From NCBI RefSeq assembly GCF_009711055.1, contig NZ_WMJY01000005.1, positions 70,524-134,523 of the forward strand: DNA of 64,000 nucleotides, read 5' to 3'. Below, one piece after another: positions 43,764-52,363 of this stretch. The position numbers were made by a program, and so were the translations under genes. This stretch comes from Myroides pelagicus. Lineage in GTDB: Bacteria; Bacteroidota; Bacteroidia; Flavobacteriales; Flavobacteriaceae. The notes under the pieces were generated by a model. It ran no database searches and was not told where the DNA came from. It worked only from the letters and a program-made list of their open reading frames with translations. How positions within the stretch are numbered: position 1 is the first letter of the stretch; the number at the start of each line of letters is the position of its first letter.

Positions 43764-45140
43764 ATGAATACATTAATAGCAATTGGAGTATTAGCGGTTT
43801 TAGTACTTATAGCAGAAATCATCAATCTGCGTAAACTTGTTATTCCAATGACCATCGTTGGTTTATTAGGGATTTTAGGCTACACAGTTTGTCATATCGA
43901 TGTAGAAGTTTCTTATTATAACAATATGTTTATAACTAAGAAATTCTCAAATGCTTTTACCTCTTTATTTATTGCACTAACCATTTTCTTAGTTGCATTA
44001 AGTAAAGACTTTTATCAGACACAATTTTCGAAGATAGCAGATTATATTTCCTTGAAATTATTTTTACTTATGGGAGCTATCTGCATGGTCTGTTTTGGTA
44101 ATATGGCAATGTTCTTCTTAGGACTTGAAATTTTATCAATCACTTTATATATCCTTTGTGGATCAGATCGAACAAATATTAAAAGTAACGAAGCTGCAAT
44201 GAAGTATTTCCTATTAGGATCATTTGCTTCTGGTATTGTTCTTTTTGGAATTGCTTTAGTATATGGAGCAACCTCATCATTCGATATTGCAGAAATTATC
44301 ACTATTACCTCTCAAGGTACACTACCAATCTGGTATTCCTTGGGTGTAGTAATGATTATTGTAGGTATGCTATTTAAAATAGCAGCTGTACCTTTCCACT
44401 TCTGGGCACCAGATGTATATCAAGGAGCACCTACATTGACAACTGCAATGATGAGTACATTAGTCAAAGTAGCAGCAGTAGCTACGTTATACAAATTGAG
44501 TTTTCACTTACTTAGACAAATGCCTGAAGGTTATACTACAGCGATTGTAGTTATTACTATTCTAACAATGTCAGTAGGTAACATCATAGCGTTGCGTCAA
44601 GACGATATGAAACGCTTACTAGCGTATTCGGGAATTTCACATGCTGGTTTTATGATGATGGCCCTTACTGCACTAAGCACATCAGCATCTAACTTATTCT
44701 ATTACGCAGCCGCTTATGCAGTAGCAGGTATCGGAGCTTTTACTGTGGTATTAGCCGTAACAAAAGGAAAAGACAACCAACTTATTCAACAGTTCAGTGG
44801 TTTAGGAAAAAGAAGCCCTATAATGGCTTTAGTTCTATCAGTATCCTTATTGTCAATGGGAGGTATCCCTATCTTTGCAGGTTTCTTTGGTAAATTTTTC
44901 TTATTCTCACAAGCAGTAGATAATGGCTTTATTACTTTAGTCATTTTTGGGGTTATCAACTCTTTTATCAGTATCTACTACTATTTGAAAGTAATCGTTA
45001 CGATGTACACTCAAAATGAAGTGACAGAAGAAACACAAATTACCGTGCCTCTTTCCTATAAAGTTGTCGGTATAGCTGCAGTATTGATTAACATCATTAT
45101 TGGGTTATGCCCTTCTATCTTATTAGGTCTATTCAAATAA
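43764..45140 (+). CDS. nuoN: NADH-quinone oxidoreductase subunit N
   Basis: Third antiporter-like subunit and last nuo gene. FKIAAVPFHFWAPDVYQGAP and GLEILSITLYIL hold the conserved Lys and Glu. I start at ATG 43764 (MNTLIAIGVL); an upstream TTG adds 12 non-family residues. 458 aa. A terminator lies 17 bases after the stop. Confidence 0.94.
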   Translation: MNTLIAIGVLAVLVLIAEIINLRKLVIPMTIVGLLGILGYTVCHIDVEVSYYNNMFITKKFSNAFTSLFIALTIFLVALSKDFYQTQFSKIADYISLKLFLLMGAICMVCFGNMAMFFLGLEILSITLYILCGSDRTNIKSNEAAMKYFLLGSFASGIVLFGIALVYGATSSFDIAEIITITSQGTLPIWYSLGVVMIIVGMLFKIAAVPFHFWAPDVYQGAPTLTTAMMSTLVKVAAVATLYKLSFHLLRQMPEGYTTAIVVITILTMSVGNIIALRQDDMKRLLAYSGISHAGFMMMALTALSTSASNLFYYAAAYAVAGIGAFTVVLAVTKGKDNQLIQQFSGLGKRSPIMALVLSVSLLSMGGIPIFAGFFGKFFLFSQAVDNGFITLVIFGVINSFISIYYYLKVIVTMYTQNEVTEETQITVPLSYKVVGIAAVLINIIIGLCPSILLGLFK

Positions 45141-45156
45141 TATATAAAACACCAAA

Positions 45157-45187
45157 TTAAAAAGCTGTCCAATAGGACAGCTTTTTT
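45157..45187 (+). terminator. Terminator of the nuo operon
   Basis: AAAAAGCTGTCC - AATA - GGACAGCT followed by seven T. Ends the 13-kb operon. Confidence 0.93.
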
Positions 45188-45358
45188 TTGCACCCTATTC
45201 CAATGCATTTAAGAAAAAAAGATAAATTAGTTATTTGTATATCTCAAAAAAAGATTGCTTTTTTTGTAAATTTCTAGTATGAAACTAAACGGAGATCGAG
45301 CTAATTTGAAGCTATGTTACTTGTTTTAACTCATAAAAATGTCTCATAAATAGTTTTT

Positions 45359-45470
45359 GTTGCCAAGCTTCTGCTATACGTGCAGTATTCGTGCAGTTTA
45401 CTAGCCCACAGGTAGCTTCTTGGCAAGGAAACTGCACGTATTCTGCAACTATAGGTCAAGAAGGAATGGA
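45359..45470. repeat. Dispersed intergenic repeat, copy B
   Basis: Aligns with copy A at 23800-23910. Self-complementary arms are better preserved here: TTGCCAAG/CTTGGCAA, CGTGCAGTTT/AAACTGCACG and ATACGTGCAG/CTGCACGTAT. The CGTGCAGT(A/T)T motif also occurs twice in direct orientation. It can fold into alternative hairpins. No coding frame runs through it. Confidence 0.75.
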
Positions 45471-45551
45471 CAAAAGACACATCTAATGACATTATCAATC
45501 ACTGTAGCCTATATTACTTTTAAATAAAACTGAAGTAAAAGATTGTTTAAA

Positions 45552-45743
45552 TTATTCGATCGCTTTGATAGCATATTCTCTTGCCTTTAGCAGTGCAAAA
45601 AAGGTCTTTAAATGCATTGCCCTACGATGTAATAAAGAAATATGTGAAAAATCTCCAACTAAATAAAGTAAATCGTCTTTTCCAACAGATAAACAATAAA
45701 GGTCTATCGTTTTAAAAAACTTTATTTTTTTCCACCTAAACCA
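45552..45743 (-). pseudogene. Decayed coding remnant, family unknown
   Basis: A minus-strand frame of 63 codons reads IDLYCLSVGKDDLLYLVGD, then HISLLHRRAMHLKTFFALLK, and ends in KAREYAIKAIE. The amino-acid run is protein-like, but no ATG lies near its 5' end, an in-frame stop closes it at 45744-45746, and the boundary falls next to a run of seven A where a frameshift could open the other frame. This looks like the 3' end of a decayed gene. No family is recognised. Confidence 0.35.
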
Positions 45744-45817
45744 TTAGGATAACATTTAAAACTTAACTTGAAAAGTTATCGAGAAATATTTATTTATAAA
45801 AAAATTTATTCAAACTA

Positions 45818-45847
45818 TTTGCTAAATAAGTTTTTTTACTAATTTAG
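45818..45847 (+). promoter_or_regulatory. Promoter of the trp operon
   Basis: TTTG (45818-45821), 18 bases, TAATTTAG (45840-45847, one base off TAnnTTTG). Transcription should begin near 45854, just upstream of the leader peptide. Confidence 0.6.
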
Positions 45848-45867
45848 CCAAACATATTCAGGAGAAA

Positions 45868-45954
45868 ATGAACATTTCAATCTTAAATACAAACTGGTGG
45901 TGGCTTTCTAAATCCAATCTTGGGTTCAGTTGGCTATGGTGTGTATTGAGATAA
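45868..45954 (+). CDS. trpL: trp operon leader peptide
   Basis: A 28-codon frame that begins MNISILNTN, has three consecutive Trp codons (45895-45903) and two more at 45931 and 45937, then a stop at 45952-45954. Five Trp codons in 28 is far above chance. AGGAG stands five bases before the ATG, an unusually good Shine-Dalgarno for this genome. A terminator hairpin 41 bases after the stop and trpE beyond it fit a ribosome-mediated attenuator: Trp starvation would stall the ribosome at the Trp codons. Confidence 0.88.
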   Translation: MNISILNTNWWWLSKSNLGFSWLWCVLR

Positions 45955-45995
45955 TCCTTCCTATTTTGAAGTAAAACAATATTATAACTACATAA

Positions 45996-46032
45996 GAAAA
46001 GCCTACTGGTAACCCCAGTAGGCTTTTCTCGT
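45996..46032 (+). terminator. trp attenuator terminator
   Basis: GAAAAGCCTACTGG (45996-46009) pairs perfectly with CCAGTAGGCTTTTC (46015-46028) around TAACC, followed by TCGTTTT. The 5' arm (46000-46008) can alternatively pair with CAGTTGGCT in the leader peptide (45927-45935), with one T-T mismatch, which would open the hairpin. Confidence 0.85.
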
Positions 46033-46061
46033 TTTATCTATCCATACTAAACTTATTAGAC

Positions 46062-47450
46062 ATGAAATTTACAATCAATTACAAAAAGATGATTGGTGAT
46101 ACCTATACACCAGTTGAATTATATCTAAAACTAAGAGATAAATATCCGAATAGCTTTCTATTAGAAAGCTCAGATTATAGCTCACATGACAACAGCTTTT
46201 CGTTTATAGGATTAAATCCTATAGCATCATACGTTGCAGATAAAAATATAACAAGCATACAACACACCAATGGACAAAAAGAGCAGTTTCAAACCAGAGA
46301 GAAAGATCTGACTGAACAACTCCATCAATTTCTAAAAACTATACAAGTGGAAAACAATAGTGGAATTGATTTCCTAAATACAGGGGTCTTTGGCTATACT
46401 TCTTATGATAGTATTCCTCTGCTTGAATCAATAACATTTAAGCCCAATACCTCTGATTTGCCATTAGTGCAATACCACTTTTTTAAGTACATAATTATTT
46501 TCAATCATTTCAATACAGAATTATACTTAGTAGAGCATAAATTAGCAGAGGAAGAATCACACTTACCAGCATTACTTGAAATACTAAAAGGACAAACCCC
46601 TGCAACTTTCAACTTTAAGACGACCTATGATGAATTAACATCGAATACAGACGAGGAGTTTTTATCACTTATTGAAAAAGGGAAACAACATTGTTTTAGA
46701 GGTGATGTTTTTCAACTTGTACTCTCACGCCAATTCAAACAGAAATTCGCTGGAGACGAATTCAATGTATATCGAACACTACGTTCTATTAACCCCTCCC
46801 CTTACCTATTCTACTTTGACTATGGAAACTTCAAGATCTTTGGATCTTCTCCAGAAGCTCAATTAGTAATTCGCAATAACAAGGCATATATCAATCCTAT
46901 AGCAGGAACTTTCCTTCGCAGTGGAGAAGCAGATAAAGATAAAGAAATTGCCAATGAACTAGCTAATGATCCAAAGGAAAACGCAGAACATATCATGCTC
47001 GTTGATTTAGCTAGAAACGATCTCAGCAAGCATAGTCAATGTGTAACAATTGAGAAACTCAAACAAGTAGAATACTATTCTCATGTTATTCACTTAGTAT
47101 CTAAGGTCAGTGGAAGCCTCGAACAAGGTTATAACCCAATAGAAATCTTCAAAGACACATTTCCTGCTGGGACACTTTCGGGAGCACCAAAATACAAAGC
47201 AATGGAATTAATAGACCAGTATGAAACGACAAATCGTGGACTATATGGTGGAGCAGTAGGCGTCTTAAAGTTAAACGGAGAGATGAATCAAGCCATATTT
47301 ATTCGCTCAGTTGTCAGCCAAAACAATGAATTGCAATATCAAGCAGGTTGTGGAATAGTAACTAAATCCAATACCGCTTCAGAGCTAGCAGAAATAAACA
47401 ACAAATTAAAGGCTGTCCGAACAGCTATTACTAAAGCACAAGATCTATAA
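46062..47450 (+). CDS. trpE: Anthranilate synthase component I
   Basis: Makes anthranilate from chorismate with ammonia or glutamine from TrpG. The feedback-binding element is LLESSDYSSHDNSFSFIG near residue 33; catalytic chorismate-binding segments are SPEAQLVI, IAGTFLRSGEADKDKE and FPAGTLSGAPKYKAMEL. 462 aa. It is first in trpEGDCFBA, behind the attenuator. Confidence 0.95.
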   Translation: MKFTINYKKMIGDTYTPVELYLKLRDKYPNSFLLESSDYSSHDNSFSFIGLNPIASYVADKNITSIQHTNGQKEQFQTREKDLTEQLHQFLKTIQVENNSGIDFLNTGVFGYTSYDSIPLLESITFKPNTSDLPLVQYHFFKYIIIFNHFNTELYLVEHKLAEEESHLPALLEILKGQTPATFNFKTTYDELTSNTDEEFLSLIEKGKQHCFRGDVFQLVLSRQFKQKFAGDEFNVYRTLRSINPSPYLFYFDYGNFKIFGSSPEAQLVIRNNKAYINPIAGTFLRSGEADKDKEIANELANDPKENAEHIMLVDLARNDLSKHSQCVTIEKLKQVEYYSHVIHLVSKVSGSLEQGYNPIEIFKDTFPAGTLSGAPKYKAMELIDQYETTNRGLYGGAVGVLKLNGEMNQAIFIRSVVSQNNELQYQAGCGIVTKSNTASELAEINNKLKAVRTAITKAQDL

Positions 47451-47452
47451 AT

Positions 47453-48013
47453 ATGAAAATACTAGTCATCGATAATTACGATTCTTTTGTCTATAACTTG
47501 ATATACATAATCAAAGAACAGGCAGACCATCAAGTAGATGTCATCAGAAATGATCAACTAACAATTCAAGATATTAATCAATACGACAAAATTCTATTAT
47601 CACCAGGTCCTGGAATACCTCATGAAGCAGGTCAACTAATGGAGGTTATTCACACCTATGCTAAAAGCAAAGATATATTGGGTATCTGCTTAGGTCATCA
47701 AGCCTTGGGTCAATATATGGGAATGCAATTGAAACAATTAGCAGAACCGTTTCACGGTATCTCGAGTAAGATAAACATTGTGGAACACGATATATTATTT
47801 GATGGAGTCTCTAATCACACACCTATAGCACATTATCACTCTTGGGTGGTTGATACACCTCCTGATGAAATCATAGTAACAGCTTATGATGACGAAGGAA
47901 ACGTTATGGCCTACAAACACAGAGAATTAAACATTAGAGGTTTGCAGTTTCACCCCGAGTCCATACTGACTGTGGAAGGAAAAAAAATGATTACAAACTG
48001 GTTAAACAATTAA
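47453..48013 (+). CDS. trpG: Anthranilate synthase component II
   Basis: Class I glutamine amidotransferase supplying ammonia to TrpE. The nucleophile Cys is in GICLGHQALGQ; the His-Glu pair is in LQFHPESIL; LLSPGPGIPHEAG is the oxyanion strand. 186 aa; starts 2 bases after trpE. Confidence 0.95.
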   Translation: MKILVIDNYDSFVYNLIYIIKEQADHQVDVIRNDQLTIQDINQYDKILLSPGPGIPHEAGQLMEVIHTYAKSKDILGICLGHQALGQYMGMQLKQLAEPFHGISSKINIVEHDILFDGVSNHTPIAHYHSWVVDTPPDEIIVTAYDDEGNVMAYKHRELNIRGLQFHPESILTVEGKKMITNWLNN

Positions 48014-48016
48014 GTG

Positions 48017-49006
48017 ATGAAAGAAGTATTAAATCAACTAGCACAACATAAAACACTGACAAAAGAGCAAGCAAAACAAGTACTAAACAATATGGCTAAT
48101 CAGTCGTATACAGAGACACAGTTAGCCGCTCTACTTACAGCCTTTCTCATGCGTCCAATCACCCTAGAAGAGCTCCAAGGATTTCGTGAAGCCATGGTAG
48201 AATTAGCCATTAAAGTAGATCTGTCAGCCTATAATCCTATGGATATGTGTGGAACAGGTGGAGATGGAAAAGATACGTTTAACATTTCTACGCTCTCCGC
48301 TTTTATAGCAGCTGGAGCAGGGATACCAATAGCAAAACACGGAAACTATGGAGTATCCTCTATCTCTGGTTCATCAAGTGTAATGGAAAACCTCGGTATT
48401 CACTTTACTGCTGATGAAGTACGACTCCAACAACAACTAAAAGAAGCAAATATCTGTTTTTTACACGCTCCTTTATTTCACCCAGCCATGAAGACCATAG
48501 CTCCGGTTCGAAAGGCATTAGGGGTTAAAACATTCTTCAATATGTTAGGTCCACTTACTAATCCTGCTCAACCTAAAGTACAATTAATTGGGCTTTTTAA
48601 CCTTGAACTGTTGAGAATGTACCAATATTTTTTACAATCATCAGGAAGCCAATACAGCATTATTCATGCCTTAGATGGCTATGATGAATGTAGTTTAACA
48701 GGCACTGCTAAACTAGCAACAAACAATGGGGAGCAAATAATATCTCCCGCTTATTTCAACTTACAGCCAGTCCGAGCAGAGGAAATCAAAGGAGGTACAA
48801 CAGTAGAAGAATCAGCCTTGATTTTTTGGACTATATTAAAGGGAAAAGGCACTGAATCACAAAACAATGTAGTGCTAGCTAATGCAGCCCTAGCAATACA
48901 AACATATAAGTCCAATTTATCCATTAATGAGGCATTAGAACTAGCGAAAGACTCCTTATTGACAGGCAAAGCTAAACAAGCATTCGAAACACTGAGACAA
49001 CTATGA
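48017..49006 (+). CDS. trpD: Anthranilate phosphoribosyltransferase
   Basis: Adds PRPP to anthranilate. The PRPP loop is CGTGGDGKDTFNIST and the anthranilate-site segment is KHGNYGVSSISGSS. I use the ATG at 48017; a GTG one codon upstream directly follows the trpG stop. 329 aa. Its stop overlaps the trpC start in ATGA. Confidence 0.94.
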   Translation: MKEVLNQLAQHKTLTKEQAKQVLNNMANQSYTETQLAALLTAFLMRPITLEELQGFREAMVELAIKVDLSAYNPMDMCGTGGDGKDTFNISTLSAFIAAGAGIPIAKHGNYGVSSISGSSSVMENLGIHFTADEVRLQQQLKEANICFLHAPLFHPAMKTIAPVRKALGVKTFFNMLGPLTNPAQPKVQLIGLFNLELLRMYQYFLQSSGSQYSIIHALDGYDECSLTGTAKLATNNGEQIISPAYFNLQPVRAEEIKGGTTVEESALIFWTILKGKGTESQNNVVLANAALAIQTYKSNLSINEALELAKDSLLTGKAKQAFETLRQL

Positions 49007-49794
49007 GACATATATTAGAAACGATAAAATTACATAAACTCCAAGAAGTAGAACAACGCAAACAAAACACCTCAGAAGAACAACTGAAAAACGGTGTACT
49101 TTTTAAGCGATCAACGATTTCATTAGTAGATAAAATCAGACAAGCAAATACACCACATATCATAGCAGAATTTAAAAGACAATCCCCCTCAAAAGGTATT
49201 ATCAGAAACAATGCAGATATTGTCAGTATCACAGCAGGCTATCAAGCCCAAGGTGCTTCAGCAGTATCGGTGTTAAATGATACTAAATTCTTTGGTGCAA
49301 AAGCGAATGACTTTATCACAGCAAGAGAGCAATTATCGATTCCATTATTGCAAAAAGACTTCATCGTTGATAAATATCAAATTACAGAAGCTAAAGCTAT
49401 GGGGGCTGACCTAATACTATTAATAGCAAAGATGTTGCCTACAGATGTTTTAAAGCGCTTAGCAGCATACGCACATCAGATTGGCTTAGAAGTATTATTA
49501 GAAACTCATAATGAAAAGGAAATCAAAGATCACTTAACAACCGAATTTGACCTAATCGGAATAAACAATAGAGACCTAAATACTTTTAGAGTAGATATCG
49601 CAAACAGCATTGCATTGAGTCAACTACTCCCAAAAAGCGCTATCAAAGTAGCAGAGAGCGGTCTAGATGATCCACAAGTAGTCACTAAGTTATACCAAGA
49701 AGGGTTTAATGCTTTTTTGATCGGAGAGTATTTTATGAAAGCTTCAGATCCAACGCTAAAACTAAAAGAGACACGCCAAAAAATTGTAATATGA
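49003..49794 (+). CDS. trpC: Indole-3-glycerol phosphate synthase
   Basis: TIM-barrel enzyme. IIAEFKRQSPSKG, LLQKDFIVDKYQI, and GINNRDLNTF carry the catalytic Lys/Glu/Asn residues. 263 aa and not fused to TrpF, which follows with a 4-base ATGA overlap. Confidence 0.94.
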   Translation: MRHILETIKLHKLQEVEQRKQNTSEEQLKNGVLFKRSTISLVDKIRQANTPHIIAEFKRQSPSKGIIRNNADIVSITAGYQAQGASAVSVLNDTKFFGAKANDFITAREQLSIPLLQKDFIVDKYQITEAKAMGADLILLIAKMLPTDVLKRLAAYAHQIGLEVLLETHNEKEIKDHLTTEFDLIGINNRDLNTFRVDIANSIALSQLLPKSAIKVAESGLDDPQVVTKLYQEGFNAFLIGEYFMKASDPTLKLKETRQKIVI

Positions 49795-50426
49795 AACAAG
49801 TAAAAATCTGTGGTATGAAAGATCCAGAGAACATTAAGCAACTCTGTAAACTACCTATCGATTACATCGGTCTTATCTTTTACCCTAAATCCAAAAGGTA
49901 TATAGGTCATATAGAAGAAACTATACTTGATAGTATTCCAACTTCAGTAAAAAAGGTAGGCGTTTTTGTAAACGAAAAGACAGAAGAGGTTCTTCACAAA
50001 AAGAAGAATTACAAACTAGACTATATTCAATTGCACGGCAATGAAACGGTAAATGATTGTGCCTTATATAAGACAAATGGAATAAATGTTATTAAAGCAT
50101 TTTCAATAGGAAAAAACGAGGACTTAGAACAAACTCTTGCTTATAGTCCCTATTGTGATGCGTTTATATTTGATACCCCAACTCCTACTTTTGGCGGTAG
50201 TGGGAAGGTCTTCAATTGGAATTTACTTAACGAGTATCAAGGAAACACTCCTTACCTCTTAAGTGGAGGGCTTGGCATACACAATATACAAGAGGCAATG
50301 AATATACAAGACAACAGACTAATTGGATATGATATCAATAGCCAAATAGAGCAAGAGCATTATTTAAAGAACATTACACTAGCTACACAACTAGTACAAA
50401 AAATAAAAAAGCATGAAGGAATTTAA
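49791..50426 (+). CDS. trpF: Phosphoribosylanthranilate isomerase
   Basis: Small TIM-barrel isomerase. [12 protein letters not shown] has the catalytic Cys and [19 protein letters not shown] the catalytic Asp and phosphate loop. [11 protein letters not shown] follows. 211 aa; overlaps trpB by 14 bases. Confidence 0.93.
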
Positions 50427-51600
50427 CCCAAATAAACAAGGATATTACGGAGAATACGGTGGAGCATTTATTCCAGAAATGCTGTATAACAACGTAGCCG
50501 ATTTACAAGAAAACTATCTTGACATCATACAATCAGACAGTTTTAAACAAGAGCTTGAAAAGCTATTAAAAGACTATGTAGGTAGACCAACTCCTCTTTT
50601 CTATTCAGTAAACTTATCCAAAAAATATAACGCTAAGATCTATCTAAAAAGAGAAGATCTCAATCATACAGGAGCTCATAAAATAAATAATACAATTGGT
50701 CAAGTACTATTAGCAAAGCGATTAGGTAAAAAGCGAATTATAGCAGAAACTGGTGCAGGCCAACATGGAGTAGCTACTGCAACTACCTGTGCTTTATTAA
50801 ACTTAGAGTGTACAGTCTTCATGGGGGCGCATGATATTGAACGCCAAAAGCCGAATGTAGAACGTATGAAAATGCTAGGCGCAACAGTGATAGCTGCAGA
50901 GAGTGGTAGTAAAACACTAAAAGACGCAACGAATGAAGCAATCAGAGAATGGATCAATAATCCACAAGAGACCTATTATGTTATAGGATCTGTGGTAGGA
51001 CCACATCCCTATCCTGACATGGTTGCTAAGTTTCAATCTATCATCAGCAAAGAGATAAAAGACCAGCTCTTAGAACAAGAAGGCACAGCAAATCCTGATT
51101 ATGTAATAGCTTGTGTAGGTGGAGGAAGCAACGCTATGGGTGCATTTTATCATTTCATTGATAATCAACACACCCAATTAATTGCTGTAGAAGCCGCGGG
51201 TAAAGGCATAAATTCAGGTCAAACGGCAGCAACAATAGCATTGGGAAAACAAGGCATAATACACGGAAGCAAAACTTACTTAATCCAGACAAATGATGGT
51301 CAAATTATAGAGCCTTATTCAATATCGGCAGGTTTAGATTATCCAGGGATTGGTCCAGCTCACGCTTATTTGAGAGACACTGGCAAAATCCAGGTAGGAA
51401 GTATTACTGATGAAGAAGCCATACACGCAGCCTTTGAATTAACACGCATAGATGGTATTATTCCAGCATTAGAATCTGCGCACGCCTTAGCCTATCTTAA
51501 TAAAATGGAATTAAAAGAAAATGATATTGTCATTGTTAATCTCTCTGGACGAGGAGACAAAGACATGATTACTTACTCTAAATACTTTAACCATGAATAA
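50413..51600 (+). CDS. trpB: Tryptophan synthase beta chain
   Basis: PLP enzyme joining indole and serine. The PLP Lys is in [14 protein letters not shown] and the glutamine/glycine loop is [25 protein letters not shown] binds phosphate. 395 aa; overlaps trpA by 8 bases. Confidence 0.96.
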
Positions 51601-52363
51601 TAGAATTAATACACTTTTTGAAACTAAAAAATCTAATATACTTTCTATCTATTTCACGGCAGGCTATCCAGCATTAGAAGACACTATGACTATCTTAAAA
51701 AATCTAGACACTGCAGGTGTAGATCTAGTAGAAATAGGGATACCATTCTCTGATCCATTAGCTGATGGTCCTGTAATTCAAAATAGTAGTGAACAAGCCT
51801 TACGCAATGGAATGACAGTTGCTAAGCTATTTGACCAATTAGAGAATATTAGACAAACTGTGCACATACCAATTATTCTTATGGGATATTTGAATCCCGT
51901 GATGCGTTATGGTATTGAAGCGTTTATAGCTAAATGCTCCGAAATAGGTATAGATGGTATTATCTTACCGGATTTACCTATGGACTACTACTTGTCCCAC
52001 TTCAAAGCACCTTGCGAAAGGTACAACGTTAAAAACATAATGTTGATCAGCAATGATACATCAATTAAAAGAGTGAGAGAAATAGACGAACAAACAAATG
52101 GTTTTATATATTTAGTTTCTTCAAATGGAACAACGGGATCTAACAAATCGCTAGAAACTCAGCAAGATTACTACAAACACATACAAGGTCTAGAATTAAA
52201 GAATCCTATCTTGATTGGTTTTGGAGTACGAGATAAGCAAACGTATGAATTAACTAATCAATATAGTTCTGGTGCGATTATAGGTACAGCATTTATGAAA
52301 CACATTAATGAACAAGGCATAGACGTATCCTCTATACAAAGCTTTATAAACAGTATCAGATAG
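51593..52363 (+). CDS. trpA: Tryptophan synthase alpha chain
   Basis: Cleaves indole-3-glycerol phosphate. The catalytic Glu is in [18 protein letters not shown] and the Asp in [21 protein letters not shown] and GTAF are phosphate contacts. 256 aa. Last gene of the operon. Confidence 0.95.

Follow-up and report, generated by a model that had tools for sequence, protein, structure and literature searches.

The stretch of DNA analysed here, called the window in the following, covers 64,000 nucleotides of the Myroides pelagicus genome and carries a trp operon. Its genes, all on the plus strand, are arranged in the order trpEGDCFBA downstream of a terminator hairpin, as follows:

45995 to 46029, plus strand: terminator hairpin, perfect 15-bp stem with the loop at 46010-46014, followed by CGTTTTATCT
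46062 to 47450, plus strand: trpE, PF04715 above cut-off; the best NCBIfam match is trpE_most, under the cut-off of that model
47453 to 48013, plus strand: trpG, TIGR00566 above cut-off
48014 to 49006, plus strand: trpD, TIGR01245 above cut-off
49003 to 49794, plus strand: trpC, NF001377 above cut-off
49791 to 50426, plus strand: trpF, best match NF002298, under its cut-off
50413 to 51600, plus strand: trpB, TIGR00263 above cut-off
51593 to 52363, plus strand: trpA, TIGR00262 above cut-off

Among the best 80 loci from named contigs, the nearest named relative of this TrpE was that of Myroides albus, with 76% identity. The terminator stem contains 7 G-C pairs and is closed by a 5-nt loop; since CGTTTTATCT comes directly after the hairpin, the T tract is interrupted. 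An intrinsic terminator is, as far as sequence can tell, located between the leader described below and the first gene of the operon. The sequence-only reading had reported a perfect hairpin of 14 bp with trpE as the next gene. The perfect hairpin and the position of trpE were both confirmed, the stem being one pair longer than given. On the upstream side the neighbouring gene nuoN ends at 45140, and a separate terminator-like hairpin at 45159-45186, right after nuoN, closes the nuo side. The region of about 0.7 kb that separates nuoN from the trp promoter (45141-45850) contained no ORF of at least 80 aa.

Ahead of the terminator hairpin a candidate promoter and a short, Trp-rich ORF were read from the sequence:

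45818 to 45821, plus strand: candidate -33 element TTTG
45840 to 45847, plus strand: candidate -7 box TAATTTAG, one mismatch to the Bacteroidota consensus TAnnTTTG
45860 to 45864, plus strand: AGGAG, Shine-Dalgarno-like, 3 nt ahead of the ATG
45868 to 45954, plus strand: leader ORF MNISILNTNWWWLSKSNLGFSWLWCVLR, 28 aa
45895 to 45903, plus strand: Trp codons 10-12 (TGGTGGTGG), presumed sensor; conserved, and in folding the antiterminator appears only with stalls here
45931 to 45939, plus strand: Trp22 (45931-45933) and Trp24 (45937-45939), presumed non-sensors, judged from the tails of relatives and from folding

A promoter of the Bacteroidota type ahead of the leader is plausible. It had been described as matching, and with one mismatch in TAATTTAG the match is not a full one. 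In F. psychrophilum the -7 box occupies positions -12 to -5 (PMC9723704), and applying this position to 45840-45847 places the predicted transcription start at about 45852 and not at 45854. In the first leaders of the sub-branch to which the window belongs (the window, L032, L035, L258, L259, L262, L264 and L266), TAnnTTAG was by eye found to replace TAnnTTTG in all eight. Over the whole set, TAnnTTTG was present at most 45 nt upstream of the leader in 196 of 245 cases, and with the published box position applied the predicted 5′ UTR was 0 nt long in 13 leaders and 1-5 nt long in 69. Motifs resembling a Shine-Dalgarno sequence were rare (n = 4 of 245), the AGGAG of the window being one of them. 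Leaderless mRNAs are described as making up 5.5% of 890 mRNAs in F. psychrophilum, and translation in the phylum as starting largely without Shine-Dalgarno pairing (PMC9723704).

Trp residues occupy codons 10, 11, 12, 22 and 24 of the leader ORF, exactly the 28-codon frame with three adjacent Trp codons and two more that had been noticed in the sequence. That such a bias is not due to chance also held: counting both strands, with ATG, GTG or TTG starts and nested starts included, 2839 ORFs of 8-40 aa are present in the window, and the leader is the only one with more than three Trp. An ORF with three consecutive Trp (WWW) was likewise found in only 5 of 1066 stretches of 760 nt taken elsewhere in 80 related loci, whereas upstream of trpE in the same 80 loci it was present in 60 on the sense strand and in none on the antisense strand. 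A chance ORF was ruled out on these two counts.

The conservation of the leader was followed in trpE loci from 120 genomes of the family (that of M. pelagicus included), from 61 genomes of the genus (the 30 best loci), from further named contigs (the best 80 loci) and from 148 genomes of the phylum. The upstream region was read in 106 of the 119 other family genomes; the 13 left out were those without a full operon-type TrpE (11 with none, 2 with one cut or partial). A leader with WW or WWW was present in 104 of these 106 regions, the exceptions being L020, which ends at a contig end, and L257, which has no leader. The check for a loss of the Trp codons in close relatives was thereby answered in the negative. 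Among the 136 distinct loci from the family, genus and named contigs, 112 had WWW and 17 had WW. The other seven were L020, L073 and L132, which are cut short, L070, which is masked, L089 with a WCW leader, and L095 (247 nt read) and L118, neither of which had a WW or WWW leader. At the phylum level a match was found in 128 of the 148 genomes and 40 further loci were read. Within the same class, family and order included, 22 of 24 displayed WW or longer (L157 has WLW, L155 none), and in other classes 14 of 16 did so, one of these (L170, at -546) being doubtful.

The hairpin accompanied the leader. The 257 loci comprised 230 distinct ones with both leader and hairpin, 10 with a leader and no hairpin by the rule applied, 10 without a leader and 7 duplicates, and the hairpin begins 18-62 nt past the leader stop codon (median 30). 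Of 1500 control windows, each 116 nt long, 10 contained a terminator-like hairpin with a stem of at least 9 pairs and at least 4 G-C pairs, versus 242 of 245 leaders; because the 245 were preselected for a hairpin, it is fairer to state that by the rule applied no hairpin was found for 10 of 240 distinct leaders.

Three mutually exclusive helices were predicted by folding in the leader transcript, the terminator being one of them and the other two being made up of the following segments:

45880 to 45895, plus strand: predicted 5′ arm of the protective (1:2) helix, tested across loci
45938 to 45952, plus strand: predicted 3′ arm of the protective (1:2) helix, tested across loci
45922 to 45935, plus strand: predicted antiterminator arm GGGTTCAGTTGGCT, within the leader ORF; co-variation over 97 representatives
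46000 to 46015, plus strand: antiterminator partner AGCCTACTGGTAACCC, which spans the terminator 5′ arm and loop and extends one base into the 3′ arm

The antiterminator between 45922-45935 and 46000-46015 would comprise 13 pairs, with -17.7 kcal/mol predicted for the duplex, and its leader arm is predicted to be paired inside the protective hairpin. The growing RNA was folded under constraint, a ribosome footprint of 30 nt being placed such that the A site held the tested codon. For a ribosome at W10 the antiterminator was formed at RNA 3′ ends 46006-46020, and for one at W12 at 46006-46022. No antiterminator was formed for a ribosome at W22, W24 or the stop codon. In the absence of a ribosome the protective hairpin held, 8 antiterminator pairs appeared briefly at 3′ ends 46018-46020, and the terminator won from 46022. 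From 46024 onwards the terminator surpassed the antiterminator in stability, whichever state was folded; as the completed terminator is always favoured thermodynamically, the switch would have to be kinetic.

Co-variation was assessed with 97 representatives, one per terminator core, by pairing each leader arm with its own terminator and with those of others. Native arm-terminator pairs had a mean of -16.46 kcal/mol versus -11.71 (sd 0.31) for permuted ones, and none of 2000 permutations was as low; individually, 51 of the 97 representatives were at or below the 5th percentile. The arm of the window, by energy and with bulges allowed among its 13 pairs, reached only the 10th percentile of swapped terminators, and L262 and L035a of its sub-branch reached the 36th and 43rd. 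By the measure of contiguous runs the antiterminator of the window had 5 pairs, at the 52nd percentile. Over the set, this modelling points to an antiterminator that would exclude the terminator, the swap test for the window alone being weak. For the protective helix the values were -11.79 versus -9.47 (sd 0.19), with none of 2000 permutations as low (120/215 representatives), and both folding and permutation are consistent with a protective 1:2 hairpin that a stalled ribosome would open. A weaker duplex signal was present after the leader stop (p = 1.6e-6) and was clearer with the codons before WWW included. The trinucleotide CCA shortly past the leader stop did not hold up as a general signature of the 1:2 helix (54 of 233).

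Within the sub-branch, nine leaders share 20 pairs of the protective helix and the terminator, with 89.4% of the pair cells kept. Five of the 20 pairs were changed on both sides, a kind of count that kinship inflates. The covariation score for the nine leaders was above all 500 shuffles and about twice that of the best slid control; two of five covariation measures for these nine were within the shuffles (66/500 and 338/500).

The segment of the terminator that the leader is predicted to contact was compared among 79 terminator types. The longest contiguous match to the leader involved the terminator loop in 65 of them, either as loop and 3′ arm (n = 41), as 5′ arm, loop and 3′ arm (n = 12), as 5′ arm and loop (n = 11) or as the loop alone (n = 1); matches confined to the 5′ arm (n = 11) or to the 3′ arm (n = 3) made up the rest. 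In the form common in the Flavobacteriaceae, GTCGTGA is located at the leader stop codon and TCACGAC in the loop and 3′ arm. Judged from the structure, an antiterminator that begins to pair in the loop would be ahead of the 3′ arm.

We consider it highly probable that the leader and hairpin constitute a ribosome-mediated attenuator which senses charged tRNA-Trp, and the original proposal of ribosome-mediated attenuation is in this respect well supported by conservation and by the co-variation of leader and terminator. Points that count against it are the interrupted T tract, the stability of the completed terminator, the brief antiterminator pairs in the absence of a ribosome, the weak swap values of the window and two members of its sub-branch, the two covariation measures within the shuffles, and a score below the cut-off of the Rfam trp leader model RF01692. 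The switch may be depicted as follows: When Trp is scarce, the ribosome would stall at Trp10-12 and the protective hairpin would open, and the freed arm would then capture the 5′ arm and loop of the terminator before the 3′ arm emerges, so that the polymerase would continue into the operon. With ample Trp, the ribosome would reach the stop codon, the arm would stay folded and the terminator would form. The terminator should also form on a leader that is not translated. Both the stalling of the ribosome and the response of the polymerase are what we infer from these helices.

All five Trp codons had been counted as evidence for sensing, and this part had to be narrowed down, as only the WWW triplet is predicted to be placed so as to release the antiterminator. 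Ribosomes stalled at Trp22 or Trp24 are predicted, from footprint folding, to allow no antiterminator; Trp22 is located within the antiterminator arm and Trp24 within the protective helix. The peptide tail after WWW is FSWLWCVLR in the window, FSWLYLVLK and FGWLYSTV in the two leaders of M. albus and, also in the sub-branch of the window, FSWLCCVFK in L258 and L259 and WDSVEPCM in L035a. In L262, L264 and L266 the tail GSVGRTMYL is read in another frame and the RNA GGGTTCGGTTGG is retained. Because the tails of the sub-branch differ and the frame shifts with the RNA kept, Trp22 seems to be tied to an RNA arm, and Trp24 is unconserved. We infer that the triplet is the sensor and not Trp22 or Trp24, both of which may have been kept through RNA pairing or by chance, with no role in sensing.

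The partial conservation of residues around WWW in the Flavobacteriaceae, often as N-x-T-WWW, would also be expected of a nascent peptide that senses Trp in the manner of TnaC, where free Trp binds the ribosome-peptide complex and arrests the ribosome, in place of a stall for want of charged tRNA-Trp. The residues ahead of WWW, however, are encoded within the protective helix, and its pairing may account for their conservation; downstream of WWW, L262, L264 and L266 have switched to another peptide frame although the RNA is kept. Peptide sensing is accordingly rated as highly improbable. A simple terminator that insulates trpE against transcription from upstream, with the ORF in front of it by accident, is just as improbable. 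The hairpin is indeed placed after nuoN and before trpE, as such a shield would be, but the leader is conserved in nearly all of the family genomes read, leader and terminator co-vary, and nuoN is already followed directly by a terminator-like hairpin of its own.

Attenuation could also operate as proposed and in addition release an RNA or peptide that acts in trans, for example on a stand-alone trpB. rnTrpL and peTrpL of Sinorhizobium are a precedent for a trans-acting leader RNA and peptide. In M. pelagicus the terminated leader transcript is predicted to be short, with about 185 nt and an end near 46036, and the genome has a second Trp-linked locus, both of which would fit such an action. 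The second trpB has, however, a leader and hairpin of its own, so that no action in trans is needed, and this extension is given a very small probability, a shade above that of peptide sensing or a plain shield. Among other types of control, reinitiation from the leader (PMC4833913) was a poor fit, with the leader stop ending 107 nt before trpE. Control by TrpR, TRAP or a T-box was rejected: no gene for TrpR (PF01371) or TRAP (PF02081) was matched in the genome, a T-box gave no match in the window at gathering score, and none was among the 11 Rfam matches with E up to 5 in 45750-46150.

The second trpB was encountered through the Rfam family RF01692, whose sole match listed in the M. pelagicus genome (G000:C11:33302-33442; 49.6 bits, just above cut-off) is a Trp leader MNLIITNNWWWIKLTSNIVSGPSYVVL with the hairpin common in Flavobacterium, located before this gene:

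L307 2583 to 3932 (G000:C11), minus strand: second trpB, 393 aa, stand-alone, with a Trp leader and hairpin ahead

A second trpB was present in 7 of 14 genomes searched (M. pelagicus included) at 80-100% identity, and all seven had a WW or WWW leader ahead of it, with a hairpin identified by eye. The other 14 trpB genes all lacked such a leader within 420 nt. When 21 TrpB sequences were placed in a tree with midpoint root, the seven second TrpB grouped with those of two ordinary Flavobacterium-type genomes, G163 and G172 (support 100/99), and were separate from those of window-type operons. The window-type TrpE formed a branch of 28 rows with support 100 in one quick tree with long-branch warnings, and a TrpE at E 1e-165 or better was found in 19 of 398 genomes of the genus, including that of M. 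pelagicus. Five rows of this branch (L067, L069, L073, L074 and L075) carried the labels Bacteroidales, Bacteroidetes, Crocinitomicaceae and Chitinophagaceae. This is a hint that the operon and its attenuator may have moved between lineages, or that the MAG labels err. The simplest reading, with the same caution about MAG labels, would be that the operon was replaced and a trpB left behind.

Tandem units of Trp leader and hairpin before trpE were detected in two genomes in a scan of 270 trpE loci, duplicates included; these were M. albus (L032, the same record as L061) and G160 (L035). A genome with two switches, together with these tandem switches, offers a natural experiment on attenuators that move with operons or stay behind.

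Leaders of a similar kind were also noticed before other biosynthetic genes. In the M. pelagicus genome a His leader MYSSQLHHHHHSTCTLTSW with a hairpin precedes hisG (L284), and His-run ORFs were present in 17 of 17 hisG loci (L271-L287), 16 of them with a hairpin. A leader rich in Ile, Val and Leu, MRNLVSILVVLIIVIVINTFAREPLC, precedes ilvD (L291) and is followed by an 11-bp hairpin; a hairpin was present in all eight ilvD loci followed, which had been chosen from 19 as rich in Ile, Val and Leu. Neither the hisG nor the ilvD leader locus of M. pelagicus matched an Rfam family at cut-off.

It is possible, though the proposal is a tentative one, that trp attenuation in the Bacteroidota follows a distinct loop-toehold design and that, in the branch of the window, the operon was replaced by one with its own switch. 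Here a segment of the leader, in most cases located at the stop codon, would seize the terminator via its loop and often its 3′ side, in a kinetic manner, on mRNAs that may often be near-leaderless and without Shine-Dalgarno signals. An incoming trp operon would have brought its switch along, and the old attenuator would have been left running the stranded second trpB. If so, one genome would read the tRNA-Trp signal through two switches of different ancestry.

Attenuation of trp genes is not new to the phylum. The sequence-only reading had held that it was not widely described in the Bacteroidota, which is not the case: leaders of this kind have been covered since 2010 by RF01692, "Bacteroid-trp" (Bacteroidete tryptophan peptide leader RNA; PMC2864571), and a paper from 2019 describes it as similar to the trp attenuator of E. 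coli and mentions its presence upstream of the F. psychrophilum trp operon (PMC6414381). The RF01692 model matches 45848-46007 at 33 bits (E 0.024-0.046), short of its gathering score of 49, and as the model does not accept it the window was not filed as a member. The two have in common a Trp-rich leader ORF upstream of trpE or trp genes in Bacteroidota. The long hairpin of RF01692 corresponds to the protective helix of the window and the 3′ end of the model runs into the terminator 5′ arm; since it stops there, the model includes neither a closed terminator nor an antiterminator. A further difference is that the antiterminator arm of the window is located inside the ORF and not at the stop codon. 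An RF01692 match was found in 88 of the 120 family genomes and 78 passed the cut-off, the filters used being such that weak matches are lost; among 20 hand-picked, mostly divergent loci, 3 passed.

For the transcriptome of F. psychrophilum, of the same family Flavobacteriaceae as the window, 5′ transcribed regions with clues of leader-peptide attenuation are described before amino-acid operons (PMC9723704). The words "tryptophan" and "trp" do not occur in the main text of that paper, and its passages on these regions give no pairing scheme (PMC9723704). In the open-licence literature, from which subscription papers mostly fall out, no expression test of these leaders was found. The candidate antiterminator pairing, missing from RF01692, makes mutational tests direct.

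With the E. coli trpL type the window shares a short ORF containing neighbouring Trp codons ahead of the operon, a predicted protective hairpin and antiterminator, and a terminator before trpE. E. coli trpL has two adjacent Trp codons, and the window differs from it by having three. The E. coli trp antiterminator uses the 5′ arm of the terminator, whereas the longest match of the leader arms studied here mostly involves the terminator loop, as in the 65 of 79 terminator types above; nor, unlike in E. coli, was a TrpR found in M. pelagicus. Nearly every Bacteroidota trp operon that was read has such a leader, including those which the Rfam model misses. Because attenuation presupposes a ribosome close behind the polymerase, these leaders could serve as natural reporters of the coupling of transcription and translation, in a phylum that starts translation largely without Shine-Dalgarno sequences (PMC9723704). 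Trp attenuation in this phylum is already known as a prediction and the window is a divergent variant of it, ordinary in kind: a well-supported regulator whose divergent anatomy escapes the Rfam model and whose surroundings are in part informative.
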